A stretch of DNA of 50,205 bases from Sedimentisphaerales bacterium (GTDB lineage Bacteria; Planctomycetota; Phycisphaerae; Sedimentisphaerales; Anaerobacaceae). The DNA lies in NCBI GenBank assembly GCA_016933295.1, contig JAFGBG010000085.1, positions 1 through 50,205 of the forward strand, given 5' to 3'. A model generated the notes under the pieces. It did not search any database. It was not told where the DNA came from and saw only the letters and a program-made list of their open reading frames with translations. The position numbers and the translations under genes are program-made. Position 1 is the stretch's first letter. Every line of letters begins with the position of its first letter. Shown here one piece after another: positions 32,212 through 44,259 of this stretch.

Positions 32212-32637
32212 TTATCTTTCAGTTCTTGTCCAAGTACCCTCATGGTCCAATTCCCAGGATGCTACTGTCGGAAAAAGGTCAGTATCATCTGAGGCAACCT
32301 GGACTGTATAATACACAGGATAGTCTGATGATGCATCTTGCAAAGCTGGTTCCACTGTAAAGCTGTAGTTAGCTATTGTAAAATACTTGCCTTGCATATC
32401 CTGGGCTGTTACATAATCTGATATCGCGATAGGCATTGTTATCCCATCTTCAAAACCGACTTCAGCAGCCATAGCACGGACGGCAGTCGCGATTGTCCCA
32501 CAACCTGCCTTTCCCTCGGACCATCTTGCCGCTTCAAGACGGGCCTGCATAAGTGGAATCAGGACAGCCGCCAGAACCGCGACAATCAGAACCACAACCA
32601 TCAATTCAATCAGTGTAAAACCTTTTCTACTTCTCAT
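32212..32637 (-). CDS. Major-type prepilin (PilA/GspG-like)
   Basis: The 141-residue prepilin has the textbook signal MRSRKGFTLIELMVVVLIVAVLAAVLIP, with cleavage expected after Gly6 and Glu at +5. The helix continues through MQARLEAARWSEGKAGCGTIATAVRAMAAEVG, and a small beta domain ends in WELDHEGTWTRTER. The start at 32637 is supported by AAGGAGAAAA upstream; an open frame extends 165 bases further but reads as unlike a protein. It is the only prepilin here with the canonical G/FTLIE site, which suggests it forms the pilus shaft or pseudopilus. It is 170 bases downstream of pilC. Confidence 0.92.
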   Translation of the reverse strand: MRSRKGFTLIELMVVVLIVAVLAAVLIPLMQARLEAARWSEGKAGCGTIATAVRAMAAEVGFEDGITMPIAISDYVTAQDMQGKYFTIANYSFTVEPALQDASSDYPVYYTVQVASDDTDLFPTVASWELDHEGTWTRTER

Positions 32638-32807
32638 GATATTTTTCTCCTTAATAAAGAACGTTTTTTCATTATAAATCCATTTTCGATTTTTAAGGTC
32701 TCCGTACTGTGGGCCATTGATTTTAATTTCATTTTCATAGTTGTCAAGTAAATTAAAAAAATCGGTTTTATTTTCTCCTTTCTTCTGTATTCTTTCTTCC
32801 ATCTCCT

Positions 32808-34031
32808 TTATACACCGCTTCTTATATCGGAAATCTGGAAAATCGGCAGATATAAAGCCAGAACAACTATCAAAACAATAATACCTACGATAATAATCAA
32901 AAGAGGCTCGAGCAGCGAGGTAATAGTAGTTATCGTGGCATCGACTTTGTCCTCGTAAAAATCCGCCGTCCTGTCCAAGGTCTTCCAGAGCGAGCCGCTC
33001 TCTTCGCCGGCGCGGACCATCTTTATGACCATATTGGGAAAGAATTTCGAGGTCGCCATGCTCAAAAAGATGCTCGTGCCGCTTACTATATTTTCCCTTG
33101 TCTTCTCCAGAGCGTTGCAGATTACATCGTTTTTCGTCATCTCGGAAAGAATCTCGAACGCCTCTAACACGGGCACGCCGCCCCGAAGCAGGTTCGACAT
33201 TGTCTTGCAGAAAGACGCTATAAAGGCCTGTTTAATCAATTTACCGAACAAGGGCACCCGCAAAAACAGCCTCGAACAGATACTGTGGAAAGTCGGCGAA
33301 TATTTATAAAGCACCACATATAAAATCACGAATAACAGCAGTCCTCCTAAAATATAAACCATATTGGAATATATCACATTATAGACGCCCATAAAAGCCT
33401 GCGTGAAAGCGGGAAGCTGCCCCGCGCCGAAGCGATCGAACAGGTCGGTGAATCGCGGTATGACCAATGTCATAATAACCGCAACGACTACAATCACAAA
33501 ACCGAAAACGAAGGCCGGATAGGCCATAGCCTTCTTGATTTTGCGGGCGAGCCTGTCGCGGTTGGTGTAATATTCGGCAACCCTGCGAAAAGCCACCGAG
33601 ATATTTCCGCCGGTCTCGCCGGCCATAATAAGCGAACAGACAAGCTTGTTGAAAACATTCGGATAATCCACCATGCTCTCGGAAACGCTTTCGCCGCGCT
33701 CGACCCTTTCGAGAATGGTCTCCAGTACCTTCTGGAGCCGGGCGTTATCGATGTCTTCGGCGATGGCGTCGAGGGCCTCGACAATTGTTATGCCGCCCTC
33801 GACCATTGTCGTCATCTGCCAGAAAACCGCCGCAAGCTCCGAAGACCGGATTCGCTGGAAAGCGGGAATATGAAGCTTCTTTCTGGTCCCGATTGAAACT
33901 ATTTCGACGGAAATCGGTGTATAGTCCTGGCCCTGAAGCCAGCTAAGAACATCCGACTCCGAAGCCGCCTTGGTTACACCTTCCTTGATATCACCGGAAT
34001 AATCTCGAGCAACATATCTGAATACAAGCAC
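32808..34031 (-). CDS. pilC: Inner-membrane platform protein (PilC/GspF)
   Basis: The 407-residue polytopic membrane protein is the platform on which prepilins are assembled. It shows the usual two repeated cytoplasmic domains (FWQMTTMVEGGITIVEALDAI and FCKTMSNLLRGGVPVLEAFEIL), each followed by a membrane segment (YPAFVFGFVIVVVAVIMTLVIP and the C-terminal LLEPLLIIIVGIIVLIVVLALYLPIF). The length is typical. The start codon is GTG at 34031 with AAGAGGA about eight bases upstream. It lies 24 bases downstream of pilB. Confidence 0.95.
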   Translation of the reverse strand: MLVFRYVARDYSGDIKEGVTKAASESDVLSWLQGQDYTPISVEIVSIGTRKKLHIPAFQRIRSSELAAVFWQMTTMVEGGITIVEALDAIAEDIDNARLQKVLETILERVERGESVSESMVDYPNVFNKLVCSLIMAGETGGNISVAFRRVAEYYTNRDRLARKIKKAMAYPAFVFGFVIVVVAVIMTLVIPRFTDLFDRFGAGQLPAFTQAFMGVYNVIYSNMVYILGGLLLFVILYVVLYKYSPTFHSICSRLFLRVPLFGKLIKQAFIASFCKTMSNLLRGGVPVLEAFEILSEMTKNDVICNALEKTRENIVSGTSIFLSMATSKFFPNMVIKMVRAGEESGSLWKTLDRTADFYEDKVDATITTITSLLEPLLIIIVGIIVLIVVLALYLPIFQISDIRSGV

Positions 34032-34055
34032 TGATAAATCCTCTTAAATTTTCTC

Positions 34056-35810
34056 TTATTCTTTTTCCCTGAACGTTACGCTGAGGACCTCCTCTGCGGT
34101 TGTCAGACCGGCAAGAACTCTGCTTATGCCGCTCTCGAACAGGCCATTATAACCTTTCCTTCTGGAAATTTCACGAATTTTCGATTCCGGCGCTCCGTCG
34201 ACAAGCTCGTTGCGAATTTCCCTGTCCAGCGCCAGAAACTCGAATATAGGCAGCCGGCCCAGGTACCCTGTGTGCCCGCACGTATTGCAGCCGGTGCCGT
34301 GATACAATACGATTTCTTTGCCCGGCTCGGGATTTATCTTCATCCGCCGCAGAACGTCCGGCTCGACTTTCACAGGCTCCTTGCAATGGTCGCAAATTCG
34401 CCGCACAAGGCGCTGCGCGATGATAAGATTGACCGTCGAGGCCAGCAGGTACGGCTCGACGCCCATGTAAACCATTCTGCTGATTGCGCTGGGCGCGTCG
34501 TTCGTATGGAACGTGCTCAAAACGAGATGGCCGGTCAGCGAGGCCTTGATTGCGATGTCGATTGTCTCCTTGTCACGAATTTCGCCGATGAAGATGATAT
34601 CCGGGTCCTGCCGGAGAATCGCACGCAGTGACAGGCCGAAGTCGAGTTCGATTTCCGGCTTGACCTGAATCTGGTTTATGCCGGACAGACGATATTCGAC
34701 CGGGTCCTCTACCGTGGTAATATTTTTTCTCGGGTCCCTGATATAATTGAGCGCCGAGTACAAAGTCGTGCTTTTGCCGCTGCCGGTCGGGCCGGTCACG
34801 ATAATAATGCCGTGCGGCTGGCAGAGGTTGTCCTTGAACTCCTGAAGAAGCGCCGGCTCGAAACCCAGCATGTCGAGGTTGTGATTAATCGCCGCCGAGT
34901 CCAGAATACGCATGACTACTTTTTCGCCGTATATGGTCGGAATGACCGAGACACGAACGTCGATATCTCTGCCGGTGGCCTTGATACGGAACCGGCCGTC
35001 CTGCGGCAGACGACGCTCGGCTATGTCCATCTTCGAGAGGATTTTTATTCTCGTCGATACCGCGGCCTGCATCCTTCTCGGCGGGGGAACCATGTCACGA
35101 AGCACGCCGTCGATTCTCATGCGAACGACCATCGAGTTTTCCTGCGGCTCGACGTGGATGTCGCTGGCCCGGCTCTTGACCGCCTGCCTCAGCAGCAAAT
35201 CGACAAACCTGATAACAGGCGCACGCGTCGCCGCTTCCTCGACGCTTATGTCCGCCTCGAGAGCGTCTTCTATCACCTCGTCCTTTTCCACATCTTCGTC
35301 TTCCAGCTCCACGAGGTCGCGCAGCCGCTGCTCGTCCACATCGGAGCCGTGATAGATGACTTCCAGCACGTGGTTAATGTCCCTTTGCGAGCTGAGGACG
35401 GGCCGGATTTCACAGCCGGTCTTGACCGCGACCGTATCGGTCGCGACCACATCGAGCGGGTCGGCCATGGCAAGTGTCAGCCGGTTGCCTTCCTTTGCGA
35501 TAGCCACAAGAGAAAAACGCTTCGCTATCGTTTCCGGGACAAGTCTCGCCGTGCTTCTGTCTATCTCGCTTACGTCCAGTCGAACGAAGTCCGTCGATAA
35601 ATGCTCGGCAAGAGCGTGCTTGACCGCCTCGTCACTGAGCTTCCTGAGCCTGACTAAAACTTCGCCGAGACGGCCGCCGTTGTTGCGCTGCTCGTTGAGC
35701 GCCTCGTCAAGGTCGCCGCTGTTCAGCAGCCCCTTGTTCATAAGCAGCTCGCCGAAGCGCATATGTGATTTCTTTTCGCCGGTATATGTCCTGTCACTTT
35801 CGGTTATCAT
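34056..35810 (-). CDS. pilB: Pilus extension / secretion ATPase (PilB/GspE)
   Basis: The 584-residue hexameric ATPase powers assembly. The N-terminal domain (about residues 17-170, MRFGELLMNKGLLNSGDLDEAL and LAEHLSTDFVRLD) is of the MshEN type, which in related proteins binds cyclic di-GMP. The motor domain has Walker A GPTGSGKSTTLYS, TTVEDPVEYR, Walker B RQDPDIIFIGEIRD and the His box TGHLVLSTFHTND. A four-cysteine metal site follows (CDHC and CNTCGHTGYLGR). GAGGGGGG lies about five bases before the ATG at 35810. It heads the pilus locus behind a near-consensus promoter and a leader of about 330 bases. Confidence 0.95.
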   Translation of the reverse strand: MITESDRTYTGEKKSHMRFGELLMNKGLLNSGDLDEALNEQRNNGGRLGEVLVRLRKLSDEAVKHALAEHLSTDFVRLDVSEIDRSTARLVPETIAKRFSLVAIAKEGNRLTLAMADPLDVVATDTVAVKTGCEIRPVLSSQRDINHVLEVIYHGSDVDEQRLRDLVELEDEDVEKDEVIEDALEADISVEEAATRAPVIRFVDLLLRQAVKSRASDIHVEPQENSMVVRMRIDGVLRDMVPPPRRMQAAVSTRIKILSKMDIAERRLPQDGRFRIKATGRDIDVRVSVIPTIYGEKVVMRILDSAAINHNLDMLGFEPALLQEFKDNLCQPHGIIIVTGPTGSGKSTTLYSALNYIRDPRKNITTVEDPVEYRLSGINQIQVKPEIELDFGLSLRAILRQDPDIIFIGEIRDKETIDIAIKASLTGHLVLSTFHTNDAPSAISRMVYMGVEPYLLASTVNLIIAQRLVRRICDHCKEPVKVEPDVLRRMKINPEPGKEIVLYHGTGCNTCGHTGYLGRLPIFEFLALDREIRNELVDGAPESKIREISRRKGYNGLFESGISRVLAGLTTAEEVLSVTFREKE

Positions 35811-36374: not shown

Positions 36375-36485
36375 CGGGTGAAAGACCGGCAAAGGTCTCG
36401 ATAAAATCACCGAAAAAAATGTCTAAAAAATATATTTAACTTTTATTACTATCCTTTCACGTCGGTTTTCGCCGGTCTTTTTTTT
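36375..36485. other. Competing hairpins downstream of the VIT-vWA gene
   Basis: GGTGA..TCACC (36377-36381 with 36407-36411) encloses GACC-GGCAAA-GGTC (36384-36397). The same GACCGGC can instead pair, as AAAGACCGGC (36381-36390), with GCCGGTCTTT (36471-36480), which runs into eight T residues on the plus strand. The region probably ends the minus-strand VIT-vWA operon. In the plus direction it has the form of an attenuator, but no plus-strand gene is attached. Confidence 0.4.
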
Positions 36486-39021
36486 ACTCCTGCACAGTGG
36501 TATCGTATCGAACGCCGTAAGGGACAGGCACGGGTACGGCAACGGTCGTGCCGTGGTCTCCGGCGGTGACGCGGCTCGAATCGACGGCGATAAAAGCAGT
36601 ATATGCCGACATCAAGCCGTATTCGAGAGCAACTTGTTTAATCTCGCCCGGCAAATCGCCGCTGTTGTCGTACGTCGCCTGAGAAGCGAGCGTCTCAATC
36701 TTCTTGCGCGCCCATACGCAGGCGATGCCGCCGTGAGTGTCACCCGAATTGCCGAGGTTGACAGGTACGGCGATTTCCTGGTCGAGGTTACCGACTTTGC
36801 CTGTGATTCGAATCGCCCCGCTGCTTTGTCCGGAGAATCTTCCTGTAATAATGAGCGGTCTTCCGACGAACAGATCAGGAACCTGTGCCGGGTAAAGATC
36901 GGTTACTTGTAAACCACCCCAGTCGATTGAGACGTCGGTAAGTGCCGGGTGGCTGATACGCTCGTAGAACAAATCGACAATCTCGCCGGCGCTTTCGTCG
37001 AGGCCGATATAAGCAACGGCGCCTTTGCCGAGCTTGGCCATCCGATCGAGCAGGTAGCGATTGACGGACGAGCCTACGCCGAAGCTGAAAATGCGGCTCT
37101 CGCCGAGGCGCTCGTGGACCGCGGCAAGAATCTGGGATTCGTTGCCGATATAGCCGTCGGTCATAAACGAGACTAAGCGGAACCTTTGCGGGTCGTGCGG
37201 GAAATCCAGAGCGGCCTTGATTCCCTCTATCATCTGCGTGCCGCCGCTGCCGTGAAGGGCTTCGACATAATCGAGTCCCCTGCGAATATTTTCAGGCGTC
37301 GCCGGAAGCGGCTTCGGACCGAGCTGAGAGGCGTTATTGGAAAAGCGTATCACCTGGAACGTGTCGCCCGGCTGGAGCTGCCTCAATGCGCGGGTGATGG
37401 CGTCTTTGGCCTTTTCAATCGGCTTGCCGCTCATACTGCCGGAGCAATCAAGCACAAATATCATTTCCATAGGCGCGCGTTTGAGAAATTTTAGGTTATC
37501 CGGCGGATAAAGCATCAGCGTAAAGAATCCGCCGCGATTGTCCTGATGAGTCACAAGGGCGGACTTGACTTTTTTACCCGCAACTTTGTACCGAAGGACA
37601 AAATCCTTGTTGGGGATGCTGTCGAGACTGCTGAGTTTTATCGTGCGTTTTTCCGCCGCGGGAGTGCTGTTGGTGATAACATGGCTGGGGCAGGCTATTT
37701 CTTCGATTGCCACACCGGCGTCGATATCGACTGCAAGAGAGATATCGTGCCCGCTGCGCCGGCCGGGCTTTAAGTACTGTACTTCGGTCTTCTGGCCGGA
37801 GATTCCTGCCCTGCCCTGCGCTACGGCGCCGACGCCGTCGGTATATCCGGGAGGATTATATCGCGGCCCGACAACCATCGGGAAAATGAATTCGTACCAG
37901 CCGTCCACGTACGCAAGGGTGCTGAAGTATTTTATATTGACATCGATTTGCTTGTTCGGCTCGATGTTCGCGACCTTCTGTGTGAAGATATTCGGCCGTT
38001 CCTGCGTTAAGAGCGAAGCGACATATCCCTGGCTTTTGGCCTCGACGTAAATTCTTTCCGCTTCCTCGCGCTCGCGGATTATGCCGCGAATCTTGCGCTC
38101 GCCGATAACCATGATGAATTCATTGACGGCGGCGTTCTGCGGCAGAGGAAAGACGTAAACGGCCTCGATTTTTTCATCGTAGGGATTGTGAAACTGCTGC
38201 GTCACTTCCACCGTGGCGATATAGCCGCTTATCTGCCCTTTGACATCGGTATGTTTGAGCGGCAAAGGAATCTCCTTTTCCTCGTCGGGCAATTTCGCCA
38301 GCATCGCGCCGGAGCCTGGAGTCTCCTCATCGGCAACAATCCCGCTCGTCTCGGCCTTGGCGATAATCCATACCTCATCGGCCGTAACTGTCGCCAGCTC
38401 ACTATAAATTCTCGTAGAAGATGGGCCTCCTAACTGTCTTATACGACGGTAAACTTCCTGACTCTTATTAGGTATGGATGTCAAAGGTTGATTGCTTTTA
38501 ACAATTCCATCGATTCCTTTGCTATCTCCTCCAGGGCGACGGCCGTCAGTCGTACTACTAATACCATAGCCACCCATACCACCACCATAGCCACGTCCAC
38601 CTCTTGTCCCTCGGAGGTCTTCTGCTTTAGTTTCGGACTCTGTCCTATATAATCCTCCGACTATTGGTATGTCGCCCATATCCGGAACTTTTGTTCTTGT
38701 ACCATTCTGAGAATCCATTGGCCTTTCAACAGATCGGTCTGATTCTGTTCCTTCCCGCCAATTTTTAGGATAGGTCAATTCGCTGGTATAAGGTATCTTG
38801 GAATCCCCGGCTTTTGATAGACTACTTAATCCTTTCTGTCTCTTTTCTTCAGTTAGCTGATTTAGAAAGTTATCGCGGTCTTTCAACGATTCTTCCACTG
38901 CTTGTGCCATAGCATCAGGTTTTTCTTCCTGATGTGTTGAACAGCCAACGAGCAAATAGCCGGTCAATATTGTTCCCAGTACACCTAAAAGGATTGATGT
39001 GATTAGTATTTTCTTTTTCAC
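36484..39021 (-). CDS. VIT domain / von Willebrand A domain lipoprotein
   Basis: The 845-residue protein has a lipoprotein signal ending LLVGC (Cys27). A disordered Gly/Arg-rich region follows (about residues 130-175, GTRGGRGYGGGMGGYG). A VIT domain lies at about 250-390 (VKGQISGYIATVEVTQQFHNP, IREREEAERIYVEAKSQGY, ERPNIFTQKVANIEP). A vWA domain with a complete metal site comes next, DCSGSMSG starting at Asp525, with later SGGTQM and TDGYIGN. The last 150 residues are a beta-rich region. This architecture resembles inter-alpha-trypsin-inhibitor heavy chains and is common but unstudied in bacteria. The GTG start overlaps the stop of the cohesin-like gene (GTGA). A role in metal-dependent adhesion at the cell envelope is likely. 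Confidence 0.9.
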   Translation of the reverse strand: MKKKILITSILLGVLGTILTGYLLVGCSTHQEEKPDAMAQAVEESLKDRDNFLNQLTEEKRQKGLSSLSKAGDSKIPYTSELTYPKNWREGTESDRSVERPMDSQNGTRTKVPDMGDIPIVGGLYRTESETKAEDLRGTRGGRGYGGGMGGYGISSTTDGRRPGGDSKGIDGIVKSNQPLTSIPNKSQEVYRRIRQLGGPSSTRIYSELATVTADEVWIIAKAETSGIVADEETPGSGAMLAKLPDEEKEIPLPLKHTDVKGQISGYIATVEVTQQFHNPYDEKIEAVYVFPLPQNAAVNEFIMVIGERKIRGIIREREEAERIYVEAKSQGYVASLLTQERPNIFTQKVANIEPNKQIDVNIKYFSTLAYVDGWYEFIFPMVVGPRYNPPGYTDGVGAVAQGRAGISGQKTEVQYLKPGRRSGHDISLAVDIDAGVAIEEIACPSHVITNSTPAAEKRTIKLSSLDSIPNKDFVLRYKVAGKKVKSALVTHQDNRGGFFTLMLYPPDNLKFLKRAPMEMIFVLDCSGSMSGKPIEKAKDAITRALRQLQPGDTFQVIRFSNNASQLGPKPLPATPENIRRGLDYVEALHGSGGTQMIEGIKAALDFPHDPQRFRLVSFMTDGYIGNESQILAAVHERLGESRIFSFGVGSSVNRYLLDRMAKLGKGAVAYIGLDESAGEIVDLFYERISHPALTDVSIDWGGLQVTDLYPAQVPDLFVGRPLIITGRFSGQSSGAIRITGKVGNLDQEIAVPVNLGNSGDTHGGIACVWARKKIETLASQATYDNSGDLPGEIKQVALEYGLMSAYTAFIAVDSSRVTAGDHGTTVAVPVPVPYGVRYDTTVQE

Positions 39022-39479
39022 TTTTGTTCTCCTTTTTCGTATGTGATTTTAGCGGGTATTTCGTTTCCGTCCGCATCGGCGGCGACAGTCAGCTCCAGCT
39101 CGTACCGAGGCTCGGCATCGCCGATTATCCGCAACTGGATTGTCGCGATTCGAGTGCGGCCTTTCGGCAGGTCCTTGTCGGTGCTGAATGCGGCGATAAT
39201 TATCCTGCCGCCGGCCAAAGCCGCCTTGTCGTAATAAGGCGGCTCCCCGAATGCCGGGTGCTCGCCGTTTTCGACGCCGACGATTTCGATTTGGCCGGCG
39301 ACTGCCTTTAGCTCGAACTGATAAGCCGCAAGGGCACGATTGCCCGAATCGAGATATATATGCAACGGTGCAAAACGAACTTTTTGCCGGACGTCGGTTT
39401 CGTACTCGTCGGATTGATGAGCAAGAACAGCAGCCGTCAGGCAGGCACTAATTAGAACAGTTAAAGTAATAATTCTCAT
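39018..39479 (-). CDS. Secreted cohesin-like protein
   Basis: The 153-residue protein has a signal peptide (to about AVLAHQ) and then one domain of about 125 residues. Its order of strands and motifs resembles a cohesin module: APLHIYLDSGNRALAAYQFELKA, IVGVENG, AALAGGRIIIAAF, GRTRIATIQLRI and a C-terminal strand. Cohesins bind dockerins, and the gene just upstream encodes a dockerin. The start overlaps the dockerin stop by one base (TAATG) and the stop overlaps the VIT-vWA start, so all three are translationally coupled. The cohesin assignment is by pattern and would need a profile search. Confidence 0.68.
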   Translation of the reverse strand: MRIITLTVLISACLTAAVLAHQSDEYETDVRQKVRFAPLHIYLDSGNRALAAYQFELKAVAGQIEIVGVENGEHPAFGEPPYYDKAALAGGRIIIAAFSTDKDLPKGRTRIATIQLRIIGDAEPRYELELTVAADADGNEIPAKITYEKGEQK

Positions 39480-39955
39480 TATATTACTCCTTTATTTAAG
39501 TGGACGGCTGTCTTGGCAATGAAATCGACGTCGCCGCGATTGACAAGGCCGTCGCCGTTCATGTCGAAACTCGAATCGATTTGCTCGGCGGATTCTAGCC
39601 GCTTGGCCAGTTTGAACGCGTCGAGAATATCCACGCGGCCGCTCCGGTCGATATCAGCACTTTGGGTTTCGGCAAAATAAGAATCCTCCGTACTCTTTTT
39701 GGACATCCTCGATAAATCCAGGCTGAAGGCAAAAATGACGACAGCCGCGGTGGCGGCGATTATACCGATCCGGCGGATAATATTGTGCCGCCATTGTCTC
39801 CGGACGAGCTTGCGCCCGGCATTGTCCAGAATCGCCATATCTACTTCCATTGGAACCGATTGCGGCGGCTCGAACATCTCAGCCAGGTCTTTTTTCAGCT
39901 CGGCGGAAATCTTCGGGCCTGAGTTTTCATCGAATTGTTCGTTTATTTTTGCCAT
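39479..39955 (-). CDS. Membrane-anchored type I dockerin protein
   Basis: The 158-residue protein has a cytoplasmic segment of about 60 residues, one membrane helix (62-80) and a periplasmic tail holding a dockerin. The two calcium loops are clear: DIDRSGRVDILD at 101-112 and DMNGDGLVNRGD at 131-142. Each is followed by the helix FKLAKRL or VDFIAKTAVHL. Dockerins normally sit on secreted enzymes, so a dockerin facing the periplasm on a membrane anchor is unusual. The cytoplasmic part (LKKDLAEMFEP, GRKLVRRQWRHNIIRR) might bind a sigma factor, since an ECF sigma gene lies upstream, but no known anti-sigma motif is seen. GGAGAAAAG precedes the ATG. Confidence 0.85.
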   Translation of the reverse strand: MAKINEQFDENSGPKISAELKKDLAEMFEPPQSVPMEVDMAILDNAGRKLVRRQWRHNIIRRIGIIAATAAVVIFAFSLDLSRMSKKSTEDSYFAETQSADIDRSGRVDILDAFKLAKRLESAEQIDSSFDMNGDGLVNRGDVDFIAKTAVHLNKGVI

Positions 39956-40550: not shown

Positions 40551-43500
40551 CTATTTAAGAGTAACATCGAAATAAACAGAGTGGCGACCGTAAGTTTCAA
40601 AGAACGGTTTCAGCTCAACGCCTTCAAGGCGAAAACTCAAAGTTGCCGGATCGCCGGTAATGGATTTGCCGATATCTCCGGCATCCAGAGTCACAGGCCG
40701 CCATGTGGAAAGAGAGCCCGGCTCCTGAGCGGCCAACAAAACCGGACCGTAGAAAATACTTGCGATATTGGGCTGGTCCATGACCGGCCTCAGGTAGAAG
40801 CTAAACGGCATCTTCAGCTCGATTGTATCGCCATCTCTCCATGTCCGGCGGAGAGTCAGATATTCGCCCCGGTTAATATCGACCGCCTGGATTTGGCTGT
40901 CATTGATTTTGAAAAAGAAACCGCGTCTCGCCCATTTCGGCACACGAACTTTTATGTCAAACTTGCCGCCGCCGGTAATAGTCAGCTTGGTCGTATCGGC
41001 ATAAGGATAATTGGTGCTCTGTTTGACGACCACGTTTTGCTCGGGCCAGGTCAACGTGGAAGGCACATAAAGATTGACATACAGGGTGTTATTGTCGGCG
41101 CTCTTGAAGTAGATTGAATCCTGCAGCTTCGTATTGCTCTCCAGGGCCGTGCCGTTGCAGCAGGTAAAACCACTCATGTTCGCATTGCCGAATCTCTTGC
41201 GAGCGCCGGGATTCAGAGGGACATGATAGGTATTGCCGGCATCGTTTTCTGCCACGGAGGCAAGGATATGGTTGTACAGGCCCTGTTCGTAGTAGTCCAT
41301 GTATTTGCCATCCTGGTCGAACATAAATAGCTGTCGGCTCAGCTTGAGCAAATTATACGTGGCGCATGTCTCGTTTTGTCCGCCCTGGTTGAAGCCGTTG
41401 GTAAACAACGTATTCGGCTGAGCCGTGAAGCATTCCGAGTTGTTGGGATTTTTGGCTCCCGCGACGCCGCCGATACTATACATATAGCAGTGCGAACAGA
41501 TGTCCCAGAAATTATCCGCCACTTCGTAGTATGCTATGTCCTTTGTACCTTTGTAGGTCTCTACGGCGCCGGTTATCTGCGGTATATGCTGATTGGCATG
41601 TTTGCTGCGCATGGTATCGACATTCTTTGCAAGACCGTGGTCGTGCTCGGCATTGCCGAAGAAAAAGTCGATATTGTCAAACAGCCGGGCGCAATCGAGA
41701 TATTTCTGCTTTCCGGTTATCCTGTGCAGCCGGGCCATGACTTCGTTCATACCGCCGTACTCTCCGGCTATGTAACGATTCCACATGCTGATTCGCGTTT
41801 CCGTAGGAACGACTTTTAGCCGTTCGTACACCCAGTTGCCCATGCCTTCGGCAATTTTCAGGGCCTTTTCATTTCCGCCGACCTCGTAGCAATCGAGCAG
41901 TCCGGCAAGAATTTTATGGAGGGTATAATACGGCGCCCAAATCTGGTTGTTTCTGCCGCCGTATGTGGCGCCGTTTTCCAGCATGATGAACTGATCCGGC
42001 GGATAGGCGCTGATAAAGCCTTCGCCCCAGTTCCAGTAGTCGGTACGTATGCCGTTTTCACTGAGGTCGGAATCGTAGCCTTCTTTTCCCGGCCCGGGCG
42101 GCACTTTCGTCGGATCGGCATTAAATTCGCCTCCATCCTCGACGGGCTTGCCGGATTTCTGAGAAAACTCATACAGTGTATCTATCATATAATTCATCTT
42201 TTGCAGAAAATTGGCGTGCAGGTCCGCGTCGTAAGTAGTACTTGCATAGGCCTGCGCCATGGCGGAAAGATAATGACCGCTGGCATGGCCGCGTAAACGC
42301 GTGGTCCGGCTGTCCCAGCCTCGTAAGGGCCTGACGCCCTCCGGCTGCTCCTGGCCGAAAGCATCGCGGAAGTTGAAAAGAAAACTGTCCGGATTCGTAC
42401 CGGCCAGGGTAAGAATGAACTTGTCACGATTTTTCATAAACTGGGTATCACGACCGTCCGCATCCTGATTCAAAACCACCTGTCCCAAACCGAACGGCTG
42501 TAGATTTAGCTGCGGAGCAGAAACATCGCCAGCAGAGGCTTTCACGGTAACGGTCGCCTTGGGTTTCAAATCCGTACCAGGAACAGTTCCGGTTACCGTA
42601 TAGGTTCCCGCCTCGCGCACCTGAGAATTATCCGTAGGCGCAGGCCAGAGAACACGAACCAGCGGACCTTCGGCGCCGTCGCGATATGTGCCGGGTATAT
42701 AATACGGCAGCCGCGGCAAAACACCGATGGTTGTCTCGGCGGTTATATCAGGCACGGCAACCAACTGAAGTGCTTTGGAAGCCGCATCGCCTGTTGAAGA
42801 TTCATCCCCGGCGGCGGTTTCGTCGTCAGCAACTACCACGTCAACATCTTTGGGCGTGGCGTTATTGCGAATGGTAGCGACCTGCCTGTCCGTCAGTGCG
42901 ATGCTGTATATACGCACGTCGTGGACCTTCGCGTTGAGGTCGGGATCGGTCTCGTACTCGGACTTGCCGATATACAGCAGGTTTGCCGCGGCGTTATCCT
43001 GGTTCAGTACCTGCTCCAGGGTCAAATCCACATCGTTTTCGCGAGCGACTCTTTTTCCGTCCATATAGCTGCTTAGAGTTTGATTCGCCGTATCCAGCAC
43101 AACGGCCAAATGCACCCATTTGCCGGTTGCGACACGCGGAACCACAGGGCCTACTTCTTCATTCCATCCGGTTATTGTAACGCGGGCGCGATAACCCTCG
43201 GCAGGCTCCTCGCCGACAGGGGTGCAGAAGAAATTCCGCGTGGTATCCTGTCCGAAATCGAAGAATCTCTGCCATGCCATCTCATCCCTGAGAAAGAGCC
43301 AGCCGGTAACGCTGATTGTATCGATTCCGATTAACGCCCGGCCGGGAATTTGAAGATAGCCGCCGCTGATCTGACCCGGCAGTGACAAAACTTTACCGAA
43401 CAGGCTGTCTTCGACGTAAGCGGCCCCGTCGCCGTGCAGGGTTGCATGATAATTGTTCCGGGACCAATCCTGAGCATTGCCGTTCAATATATAGCGTGCA

Positions 43501-43634
43501 ACCAGCGCCGTCTCGCCGATACCGTCAAGAAACTGGTCTCCTCCGCCGACTTGGGCAAAAACCGGCCCGGCAAAAGCCAACAAATTCACGATAAGTATTG
43601 AAACAGAGATGAGTTTTATCGACTTTCTTTTCAT
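40551..43634 (-). CDS. Secreted beta-L-arabinofuranosidase (GH127) with LamG and Ig-like domains
   Basis: The 1027-residue enzyme has a signal peptide, then a LamG/concanavalin-like domain (about 40-255, including WVHLAVVLDTANQTLSSYMDGKRV). A short Ig-like domain follows (about 300-370, TGTVPGTDLKPKATVTVKA), then a GH127/DUF1680 catalytic domain (about 380-890) and a C-terminal beta domain. The zinc and catalytic residues known for the family are visible: Glu755 and Cys757 in NETCATYN and the pair Cys825-Cys826 in GFTCCNGT, where one cysteine is the nucleophile. Such enzymes remove terminal L-arabinofuranose from arabinans and glycoproteins. The gene lies 91 bases downstream of the ECF sigma factor and 595 bases upstream of the dockerin operon. 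It carries no dockerin itself. Confidence 0.9.
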   Translation of the reverse strand: MKRKSIKLISVSILIVNLLAFAGPVFAQVGGGDQFLDGIGETALVARYILNGNAQDWSRNNYHATLHGDGAAYVEDSLFGKVLSLPGQISGGYLQIPGRALIGIDTISVTGWLFLRDEMAWQRFFDFGQDTTRNFFCTPVGEEPAEGYRARVTITGWNEEVGPVVPRVATGKWVHLAVVLDTANQTLSSYMDGKRVARENDVDLTLEQVLNQDNAAANLLYIGKSEYETDPDLNAKVHDVRIYSIALTDRQVATIRNNATPKDVDVVVADDETAAGDESSTGDAASKALQLVAVPDITAETTIGVLPRLPYYIPGTYRDGAEGPLVRVLWPAPTDNSQVREAGTYTVTGTVPGTDLKPKATVTVKASAGDVSAPQLNLQPFGLGQVVLNQDADGRDTQFMKNRDKFILTLAGTNPDSFLFNFRDAFGQEQPEGVRPLRGWDSRTTRLRGHASGHYLSAMAQAYASTTYDADLHANFLQKMNYMIDTLYEFSQKSGKPVEDGGEFNADPTKVPPGPGKEGYDSDLSENGIRTDYWNWGEGFISAYPPDQFIMLENGATYGGRNNQIWAPYYTLHKILAGLLDCYEVGGNEKALKIAEGMGNWVYERLKVVPTETRISMWNRYIAGEYGGMNEVMARLHRITGKQKYLDCARLFDNIDFFFGNAEHDHGLAKNVDTMRSKHANQHIPQITGAVETYKGTKDIAYYEVADNFWDICSHCYMYSIGGVAGAKNPNNSECFTAQPNTLFTNGFNQGGQNETCATYNLLKLSRQLFMFDQDGKYMDYYEQGLYNHILASVAENDAGNTYHVPLNPGARKRFGNANMSGFTCCNGTALESNTKLQDSIYFKSADNNTLYVNLYVPSTLTWPEQNVVVKQSTNYPYADTTKLTITGGGKFDIKVRVPKWARRGFFFKINDSQIQAVDINRGEYLTLRRTWRDGDTIELKMPFSFYLRPVMDQPNIASIFYGPVLLAAQEPGSLSTWRPVTLDAGDIGKSITGDPATLSFRLEGVELKPFFETYGRHSVYFDVTLK

Positions 43635-43725: not shown

Positions 43726-44259
43726 TCATTCGAGAAAATAATTTCTCGTTCGCTCGTCCTGACGGAGCGTTCCCAGGGCTCGATGCAGCCGGGACTTGAC
43801 CGTACCTTCCGGGATATTCAAAGCCGCGGCGATTTCCTTTAAGTTCATATCATCGACAAATCTCATGAGCAAAATCTCCCGCTGCTGCTCGGGCAATATT
43901 GCCAGAACGGCGGCCAATTCCGAACGCCCCCGAGCCGATTCTTCCGACGGGGGAACCGGGATTTCGTCCAGTTTATCTTCGCCGGACGCGAATCGGCGGT
44001 TTTTCATGGAGATATTCAGGGCCAAATGCTTGACCACCGGGTATAAAAACGTGGTCATGGACGCACTCAGGGTAAAACCGGGGAATTTACCGAGCAGGTA
44101 GGCAAAAGTCTCCTGGAGCACATCGAGCGAATCGGTATGATTGCGGGTAAATCGCCATGCAAGGTTATAGACCCAGTTGCGATATCGAAAATACAGGCTC
44201 TCGAAGGCATCGGCGTCGCCGCCGTTTATCCATTCAATAAGTTGCCAGTCCGAATCCAT
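43726..44259 (-). CDS. ECF-type RNA polymerase sigma factor
   Basis: Sigma-70 family protein of 177 residues with region 2 (about 10-80, FESLYFRYRNWVYNLAWRFTRN, DVLQETF) and region 4 (about 115-165, LPEQQREILLMRFVDDMNLKEIAAALNIPEGTVKSRLHRAL), as in extracytoplasmic-function sigma factors. The linker between them is rich in Pro, Glu and Ser. No zinc-finger anti-sigma gene follows; the nearest candidate partner is the membrane-anchored dockerin protein 4 kb downstream, on the same strand. GGGATAAAG precedes the ATG. The 91-base gap to the GH127 gene includes a stem (CGAGAAA-ATAA-TTTCTCG) without a T run. Confidence 0.93.
   Translation of the reverse strand: MDSDWQLIEWINGGDADAFESLYFRYRNWVYNLAWRFTRNHTDSLDVLQETFAYLLGKFPGFTLSASMTTFLYPVVKHLALNISMKNRRFASGEDKLDEIPVPPSEESARGRSELAAVLAILPEQQREILLMRFVDDMNLKEIAAALNIPEGTVKSRLHRALGTLRQDERTRNYFLE

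Follow-up and report, generated by a model that had tools for sequence, protein, structure and literature searches.

In a 50,205-nt stretch of the Sedimentisphaerales bacterium assembly GCA_016933295.1 (contig JAFGBG010000085.1, positions 1 to 50,205; hereafter the window), three overlapping genes encode a single-pass membrane protein with a dockerin (DOC), a small periplasmic or secreted protein (COH) and a lipoprotein with VIT and von Willebrand factor A (vWA) domains (the VIT protein). We propose that this locus, together with a nearby gene for an extracytoplasmic function (ECF) sigma factor, constitutes a sigma factor, anti-sigma factor and periplasmic co-regulator system resembling RpoE-RseA-RseB, in which a calcium-dependent dockerin-cohesin contact would serve as the periplasmic switch, and we assign this reading a probability of roughly 0.7. 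The domains, the membrane topology, the cohesin fold and the phylum-wide synteny were established by computation, as were zinc-finger anti-sigma domains in distant DOC homologues. A check of open reading frames (ORFs) found the three genes on the minus strand exactly where an earlier note on this DNA had placed them, with the overlaps that it had read, namely 1 base between DOC and COH (TAATG) and 4 bases between COH and VIT (GTGA).

COH is predicted to be a single cohesin

The earlier note had likened the second protein of the trio to a lone cohesin. A Pfam search of the window protein found no match in COH, PF00963 at its cut-off included, and a PDB sequence search using either COH or its 22-row profile returned no cohesin; fold prediction was therefore needed to identify it. 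The AlphaFold2 model, computed from 42 sequences, reached a predicted local distance difference test (pLDDT) score of 88.3, and about 95 over the domain. By Foldseek, the best thirty PDB chains for this model were all cohesins, headed by CaCohA2, OlpC and the archaeal non-cellulosomal cohesin 2xdh, and by VIA-align the first 46 PDB entries were cohesins (Z up to 10.4, 115 residues, 2.7 Å). A second member of the family, modelled separately as the chain from locus L092, also matched cohesins best. Among the orthologues, that of L164 passes PF00963 by itself (24.8 bits against a cut-off of 24.1), and those of L096 and L167 give weak matches below the cut-off. These models identify COH as a cohesin-fold protein with high confidence, and the likeness seen earlier is upheld. 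RseB has a LolA/LppX-like fold; the RseB fold was not found in COH, whose likeness to RseB is claimed for function only. At L069:4566-5216, COH-like sequence is tandemly duplicated inside one ORF.

A profile search of the window's own genome, which is 88% complete, found no PF00963 cohesin, and the genome shows one single-cohesin protein instead of a multi-cohesin scaffoldin. As far as can be judged from sequence, it bears no sign of a cellulosome scaffold, which agrees with the earlier view of an envelope complex unrelated to cellulose.

DOC carries an outward-facing dockerin with conserved calcium loops

DOC matched Dockerin_1 (PF00404) with E=4e-8 and 33.7 bits against a cut-off of 22.9 bits, and 39 of the 43 DOC homologues matched the same family at E <= 0.01. 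The two EF-hand-like calcium loops of type I dockerins, with ligands at positions 1, 3, 5, 9 and 12, are both present, the ligands being D101/D103/S105/D109/D112 in loop 1 and D131/N133/D135/D142 in loop 2. These loops, whose lack of conservation would by the earlier note's own account have spoken against its proposal, are well kept: D101, D112, D131, D135 and D142 are retained in 40 to 42 of the 43 homologues. Conservation within DOC is highest in the dockerin, with its loops and flanking helices (mean majority residue 61%, compared with 44% and 39% for the other parts), and the dockerin signature VDILDAFxLAR ... DVDxVAxxAVxL is conserved among the homologues. The flank on the N-terminal side of the single transmembrane helix is the more positive one in 42 of 43 DOC sequences, which indicates an N-in topology, and the dockerin therefore faces outwards, so that the membrane dockerin with two intact calcium loops in the periplasm stands as originally read.

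Single-pass, N-in architecture is also that of membrane-type ECF anti-sigma factors. The cytoplasmic N-terminal region has a consensus conserved among the homologues, LxxDLxxLFxPxxxVPxEVDRAxL, of which only the last segment (VPxEVDRAIL) resembles the zinc-finger homologues, and that weakly.

The cassette recurs across Planctomycetota

A scan of 148 genomes of the order found COH in 25, a scan of species genomes yielded 46 COH loci, and 33 of 392 genomes in a phylum sample were positive; after removal of duplicates, 77 distinct COH loci in Planctomycetota were retained. In genomes of the order, COH is flanked by DOC wherever the contig allows, and the VIT and ECF sigma genes are nearly always there too. 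Of the 77 loci, 75 could be tested for a dockerin membrane protein next to COH and 72 have one; one of the three loci counted without it (L162) proved on inspection to have a short transmembrane dockerin protein at this place. An ECF sigma gene lies at most 2.5 kb upstream in 59 of 70 testable loci (4 divergent), which is the neighbourhood expected of an ECF anti-sigma gene, and a VIT gene lies downstream in 59 of 74, the genes often overlapping. No two genes of the cassette keep together more closely than those of DOC and COH.

Because the arrangement recurs across the phylum, the trio of the window is not a chance assembly, and because sigma genes recur beside COH loci, the ECF sigma gene of the window is counted as a member of the same cassette. 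The survey of the trio and a nearby sigma gene that had been called for therefore supports the association with DOC and the sigma factor; the VIT part of it gives way in the distant cassettes, as described below.

Distant homologues of DOC carry zinc-finger anti-sigma domains

The most distant cassettes (L157-L160, L163-L167) lack VIT and keep the sigma factor, the membrane protein and the cohesin. The VIT-vWA protein is therefore not essential to the cassette core. COH is usually a lipoprotein there, and the membrane proteins end in a C-terminal dockerin or a dockerin-like remnant. Eight distant DOC homologues have an invariant C..HxxxCxxC motif; in L159, a single chain carries both zf-HC2 (38 bits, E=1.7e-9) and Dockerin_1 (36 bits, E=7e-9), and the profile of the eight zinc proteins matches the solved structures of ChrR (1e-4), DdvA (2e-4) and RsiW (3e-4). 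Distant DOC homologues thus carry genuine zinc-finger anti-sigma domains. Because DOC of the window occupies the orthologous position, is homologous over the remaining protein and has these zinc-finger relatives, we infer that it is an anti-sigma factor, one that is not a zinc-binding anti-sigma (ZAS) protein. Anti-sigma domains without zinc exist, RseA being an example.

Two further observations concern these membrane proteins. Within one family, L157, L158, L165 and L167 have long proline-rich linkers and dockerins with one intact and one degenerate loop, which suggests rapid change of the sensor. At L162:4710-5501, the neighbour of a cohesin lipoprotein is a bare transmembrane dockerin protein with no cytoplasmic domain, and the stretch retrieved there showed no sigma gene; this protein is possibly a derivative that acts only as a tether.

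COH and the dockerin of DOC are probable binding partners

COH is probably the partner of the DOC dockerin, since their genes are rarely separated in synteny, the dockerin is conserved, and a natural fusion and a structural model point the same way. In one genome, a single ORF (L142:5031-6062) fuses an anti-sigma-like N-terminus, a transmembrane helix, a dockerin and a cohesin with a short linker. In L092, the dockerin and cohesin genes happen to share a frame, and the AlphaFold2 model of the in-frame read-through (dockerin, linker of ~80 residues and cohesin; 255 residues, of which ~177, or ~70%, are ordered) gave a predicted template modelling (pTM) score of 0.72. By our own estimate from the pTM formula, two independently placed domains would give ~0.5, and docking of dockerin and cohesin is therefore favoured in this model. 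In fold searches of the fused model, only the cohesin half was matched, and no PDB chain with both domains appeared.

Proposed mechanism and its alternatives

In the mechanism that we propose, DOC, with its cytoplasmic N-terminus, one transmembrane helix and calcium-loaded periplasmic dockerin, would hold the ECF sigma factor inactive at the membrane, and the adjacent periplasmic COH would bind the dockerin. If the system works like RpoE-RseA-RseB, an occupied dockerin would most likely keep DOC intact or sigma-binding, and a change in the COH contact, whether lost or gained under the influence of calcium, envelope stress, or dockerins or other ligands that compete for it, may alter the proteolysis or the conformation of DOC and so free the sigma factor. 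Site-2 protease genes occur in the window's own genome. The VIT-vWA lipoprotein may be an accessory envelope partner or an output of the same operon. With somewhat less assurance, yet still as the better bet, we extend the proposal to Planctomycetota at large, where the cohesin-dockerin bond would be the periplasmic switch of an ECF anti-sigma family that spans several classes and is wider than the VIT-vWA addition.

Several points weigh against this proposal. The cytoplasmic domain of the window's DOC lacks the HxxxCxxC motif of class I ZAS proteins, a Pfam search found no anti-sigma domain in it, and its N-terminal profile aligned only weakly with that of the zinc-finger homologues (28 columns, 39% probability). 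Of the 70 loci, 11 showed no sigma gene within 2.5 kb. In three divergent members, all of which retain COH, the calcium loops are either reduced (L083, L088) or lost (L093), so that calcium is not essential in every cassette. The modelled docking is indirect evidence, read from the pTM value, and the direction of the switch is taken purely from analogy.

Foremost among the alternatives, though unlikely, is a special form of the same mechanism in which secreted dockerins displace the DOC dockerin from COH, so that the sigma factor would read the load of dockerin proteins crossing the envelope. Six more dockerin domains, mostly in large proteins, are encoded in the window's own genome, and no cohesin other than COH was found that could serve them; however, the DOC signature was not seen in the four of these six that were read, which suggests a private pair, and PF00963 misses divergent cohesins, COH included, so that others may exist, and the genome is 88% complete. 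Slightly less probable is a scheme in which the VIT-vWA protein is the real sensor and COH bridges it to DOC, mechanical or adhesive force on the lipoprotein being relayed to the sigma factor; the intact metal site and VIT domain and the frequent downstream, overlapping position of the gene fit such a role, but the distant cassettes keep the sigma factor, DOC and COH without VIT, and the lipid anchor there is usually on COH. Least probable is a static tether, with DOC merely anchoring COH (perhaps also VIT or others) to the inner membrane and the sigma factor regulating the operon unbound by DOC, as the missing recognisable anti-sigma domain in the window and the L162 protein would allow, whereas the conserved N-terminal region, the true zinc-finger domains of distant homologues and the retention of the sigma gene speak against it. 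Of the two roles that the earlier note had offered, tethering or signalling, it is thus signalling that the sigma synteny and the distant zinc fingers favour, and tethering has become the less likely main role.

The VIT-vWA lipoprotein and the layout of the locus

The third protein had been described as carrying intact VIT and metal-binding vWA domains on a lipid anchor, and this holds: PF08487 and PF13768 match far above their cut-offs, and the lipobox LVGC and a metal ion-dependent adhesion site (MIDAS; DCSGS / TDG) are read from the sequence, relatives being similar. TIGR03788 aligns over most of its model (E=3e-152) at 508.2 bits, under its curated cut-off of 551.65, so that the protein falls outside that family as curated, and no sortase motif was seen at its C-terminus. 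The linker preceding the VIT domain contains a secretin gate-like peptide, VPxLGDxPxxGxLF (aa 104-133, 38623-38712), with weak matches to Pfam Secretin and GspD; it recurs in L058, L062, L077 and L084.

In the window, the sigma gene lies 3.8 kb upstream of the trio, split off by a gene for a GH127 beta-L-arabinofuranosidase-like protein. In relatives, the sigma orthologues are directly upstream of DOC and the GH127 gene is missing from this gap, where it was seen only in the window's genome; another genome of the genus has a gene for a DUF4349 lipoprotein in its place. The GH127 protein also bears LamG and Big_4 domains, and its gene is possibly now under the regulator of the cassette. On its own strand, the trio is followed directly by type II secretion or type IV pilus-like genes (GspE, GspF, prepilin-like; 32212-35810), and such genes also adjoin the trio in the same-genus locus L033. 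By-eye comparison showed no obvious shared promoter upstream of the sigma genes, and the tree of the sigma factors is weakly resolved.

Features of the cassette region in the window
Feature	Position	Strand	Basis
ECF sigma factor, 177 aa; first gene of the conserved cassette	43726..44259	-	Sigma70_r2 and r4_2 above cut-off
GH127 beta-L-arabinofuranosidase-like gene, between sigma and DOC	40551..43634	-	PF07944 E=8e-70
DOC, predicted anti-sigma factor, single-pass membrane protein with outward dockerin, 158 aa	39479..39955	-	PF00404, topology, synteny
DOC cytoplasmic N-terminal region, aa 1-60, putative sigma-binding part	39776..39955	-	Conserved consensus, no zinc motif
DOC transmembrane helix, aa 63-81	39713..39769	-	Hydropathy and positive-inside count
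DOC dockerin type I domain, aa 98-153; calcium loops aa 101-112 and 131-142	39497..39664	-	PF00404 E=4e-8
COH, periplasmic/secreted single cohesin-fold protein (predicted), 153 aa	39018..39479	-	AlphaFold2 model and fold matches
COH cohesin-fold beta sandwich (predicted), aa 32-149	39033..39386	-	AlphaFold2 model, VIA-align
VIT, VIT-vWA lipoprotein, 845 aa	36484..39021	-	PF08487 E=1e-35, PF13768 E=1e-20
VIT domain, aa 255-365	37927..38259	-	Pfam
vWA domain with intact MIDAS, aa 519-668	37018..37467	-	Pfam; MIDAS read from sequence

Comparison with known systems

The cohesin-dockerin bond is among the tightest protein contacts and is viewed as an assembly device for extracellular enzymes. If our reading is right, coupling a dedicated cohesin-dockerin pair to a sigma factor would add regulation to the roles of this bond, would suggest one task that some orphan dockerins of planctomycetes perform, and would point to a calcium-sensitive transmembrane switch. 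The cassette also offers a concrete entry point to signal transduction in Planctomycetota, where uncharacterised ECF sigma factors abound.

In RpoE-RseA-RseB of E. coli and AlgU-MucA-MucB of Pseudomonas, a periplasmic partner protects the anti-sigma factor against proteolytic cleavage (PMC7400510). The locus shares with them a sigma factor, a single-pass anti-sigma factor (here predicted) and a periplasmic binding partner, whereas the contact here would be made by a dockerin with calcium loops and a cohesin. The class I ZAS anti-sigma factors (RsiW, ChrR, RsrA) share the C..HxxxCxxC motif and profile matches with the distant DOC homologues, but DOC of the window has no zinc ligands and its outer domain is a dockerin. 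As to the VIT protein, the marine proteobacterial sortase target described by TIGR03788 has the same VIT-vWA build, but ours is a lipoprotein that scores under the cut-off and has no C-terminal sortase motif that we could see.

RsgI anti-sigma factors of Clostridium thermocellum have biomass-sensing outer domains (PMC11557425) and resemble DOC as membrane anti-sigma factors with an outward domain from the cellulosome world; unlike DOC, they control SigI factors and not ECF factors, and the literature searched showed no RsgI-type protein gated by a dockerin-cohesin pair. Nor did that literature, which left out the main ECF classification and the non-cellulosomal cohesin review, describe a cohesin paired with an anti-sigma factor that bears a dockerin. 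The planctosome, a proposed extracellular cohesin-dockerin assembly of freshwater planctomycetes (PMC6461901), and the A. fulgidus cohesin 2xdh likewise place these modules in non-cellulolytic settings, planctomycetes included, but as extracellular enzyme assemblies or isolated modules, whereas the pair described here is linked to an ECF sigma factor. Non-cellulosomal cohesin-dockerin pairs and sensing by RsgI were thus already known, and what the cassette would add is a dockerin anti-sigma factor paired with its own cohesin.

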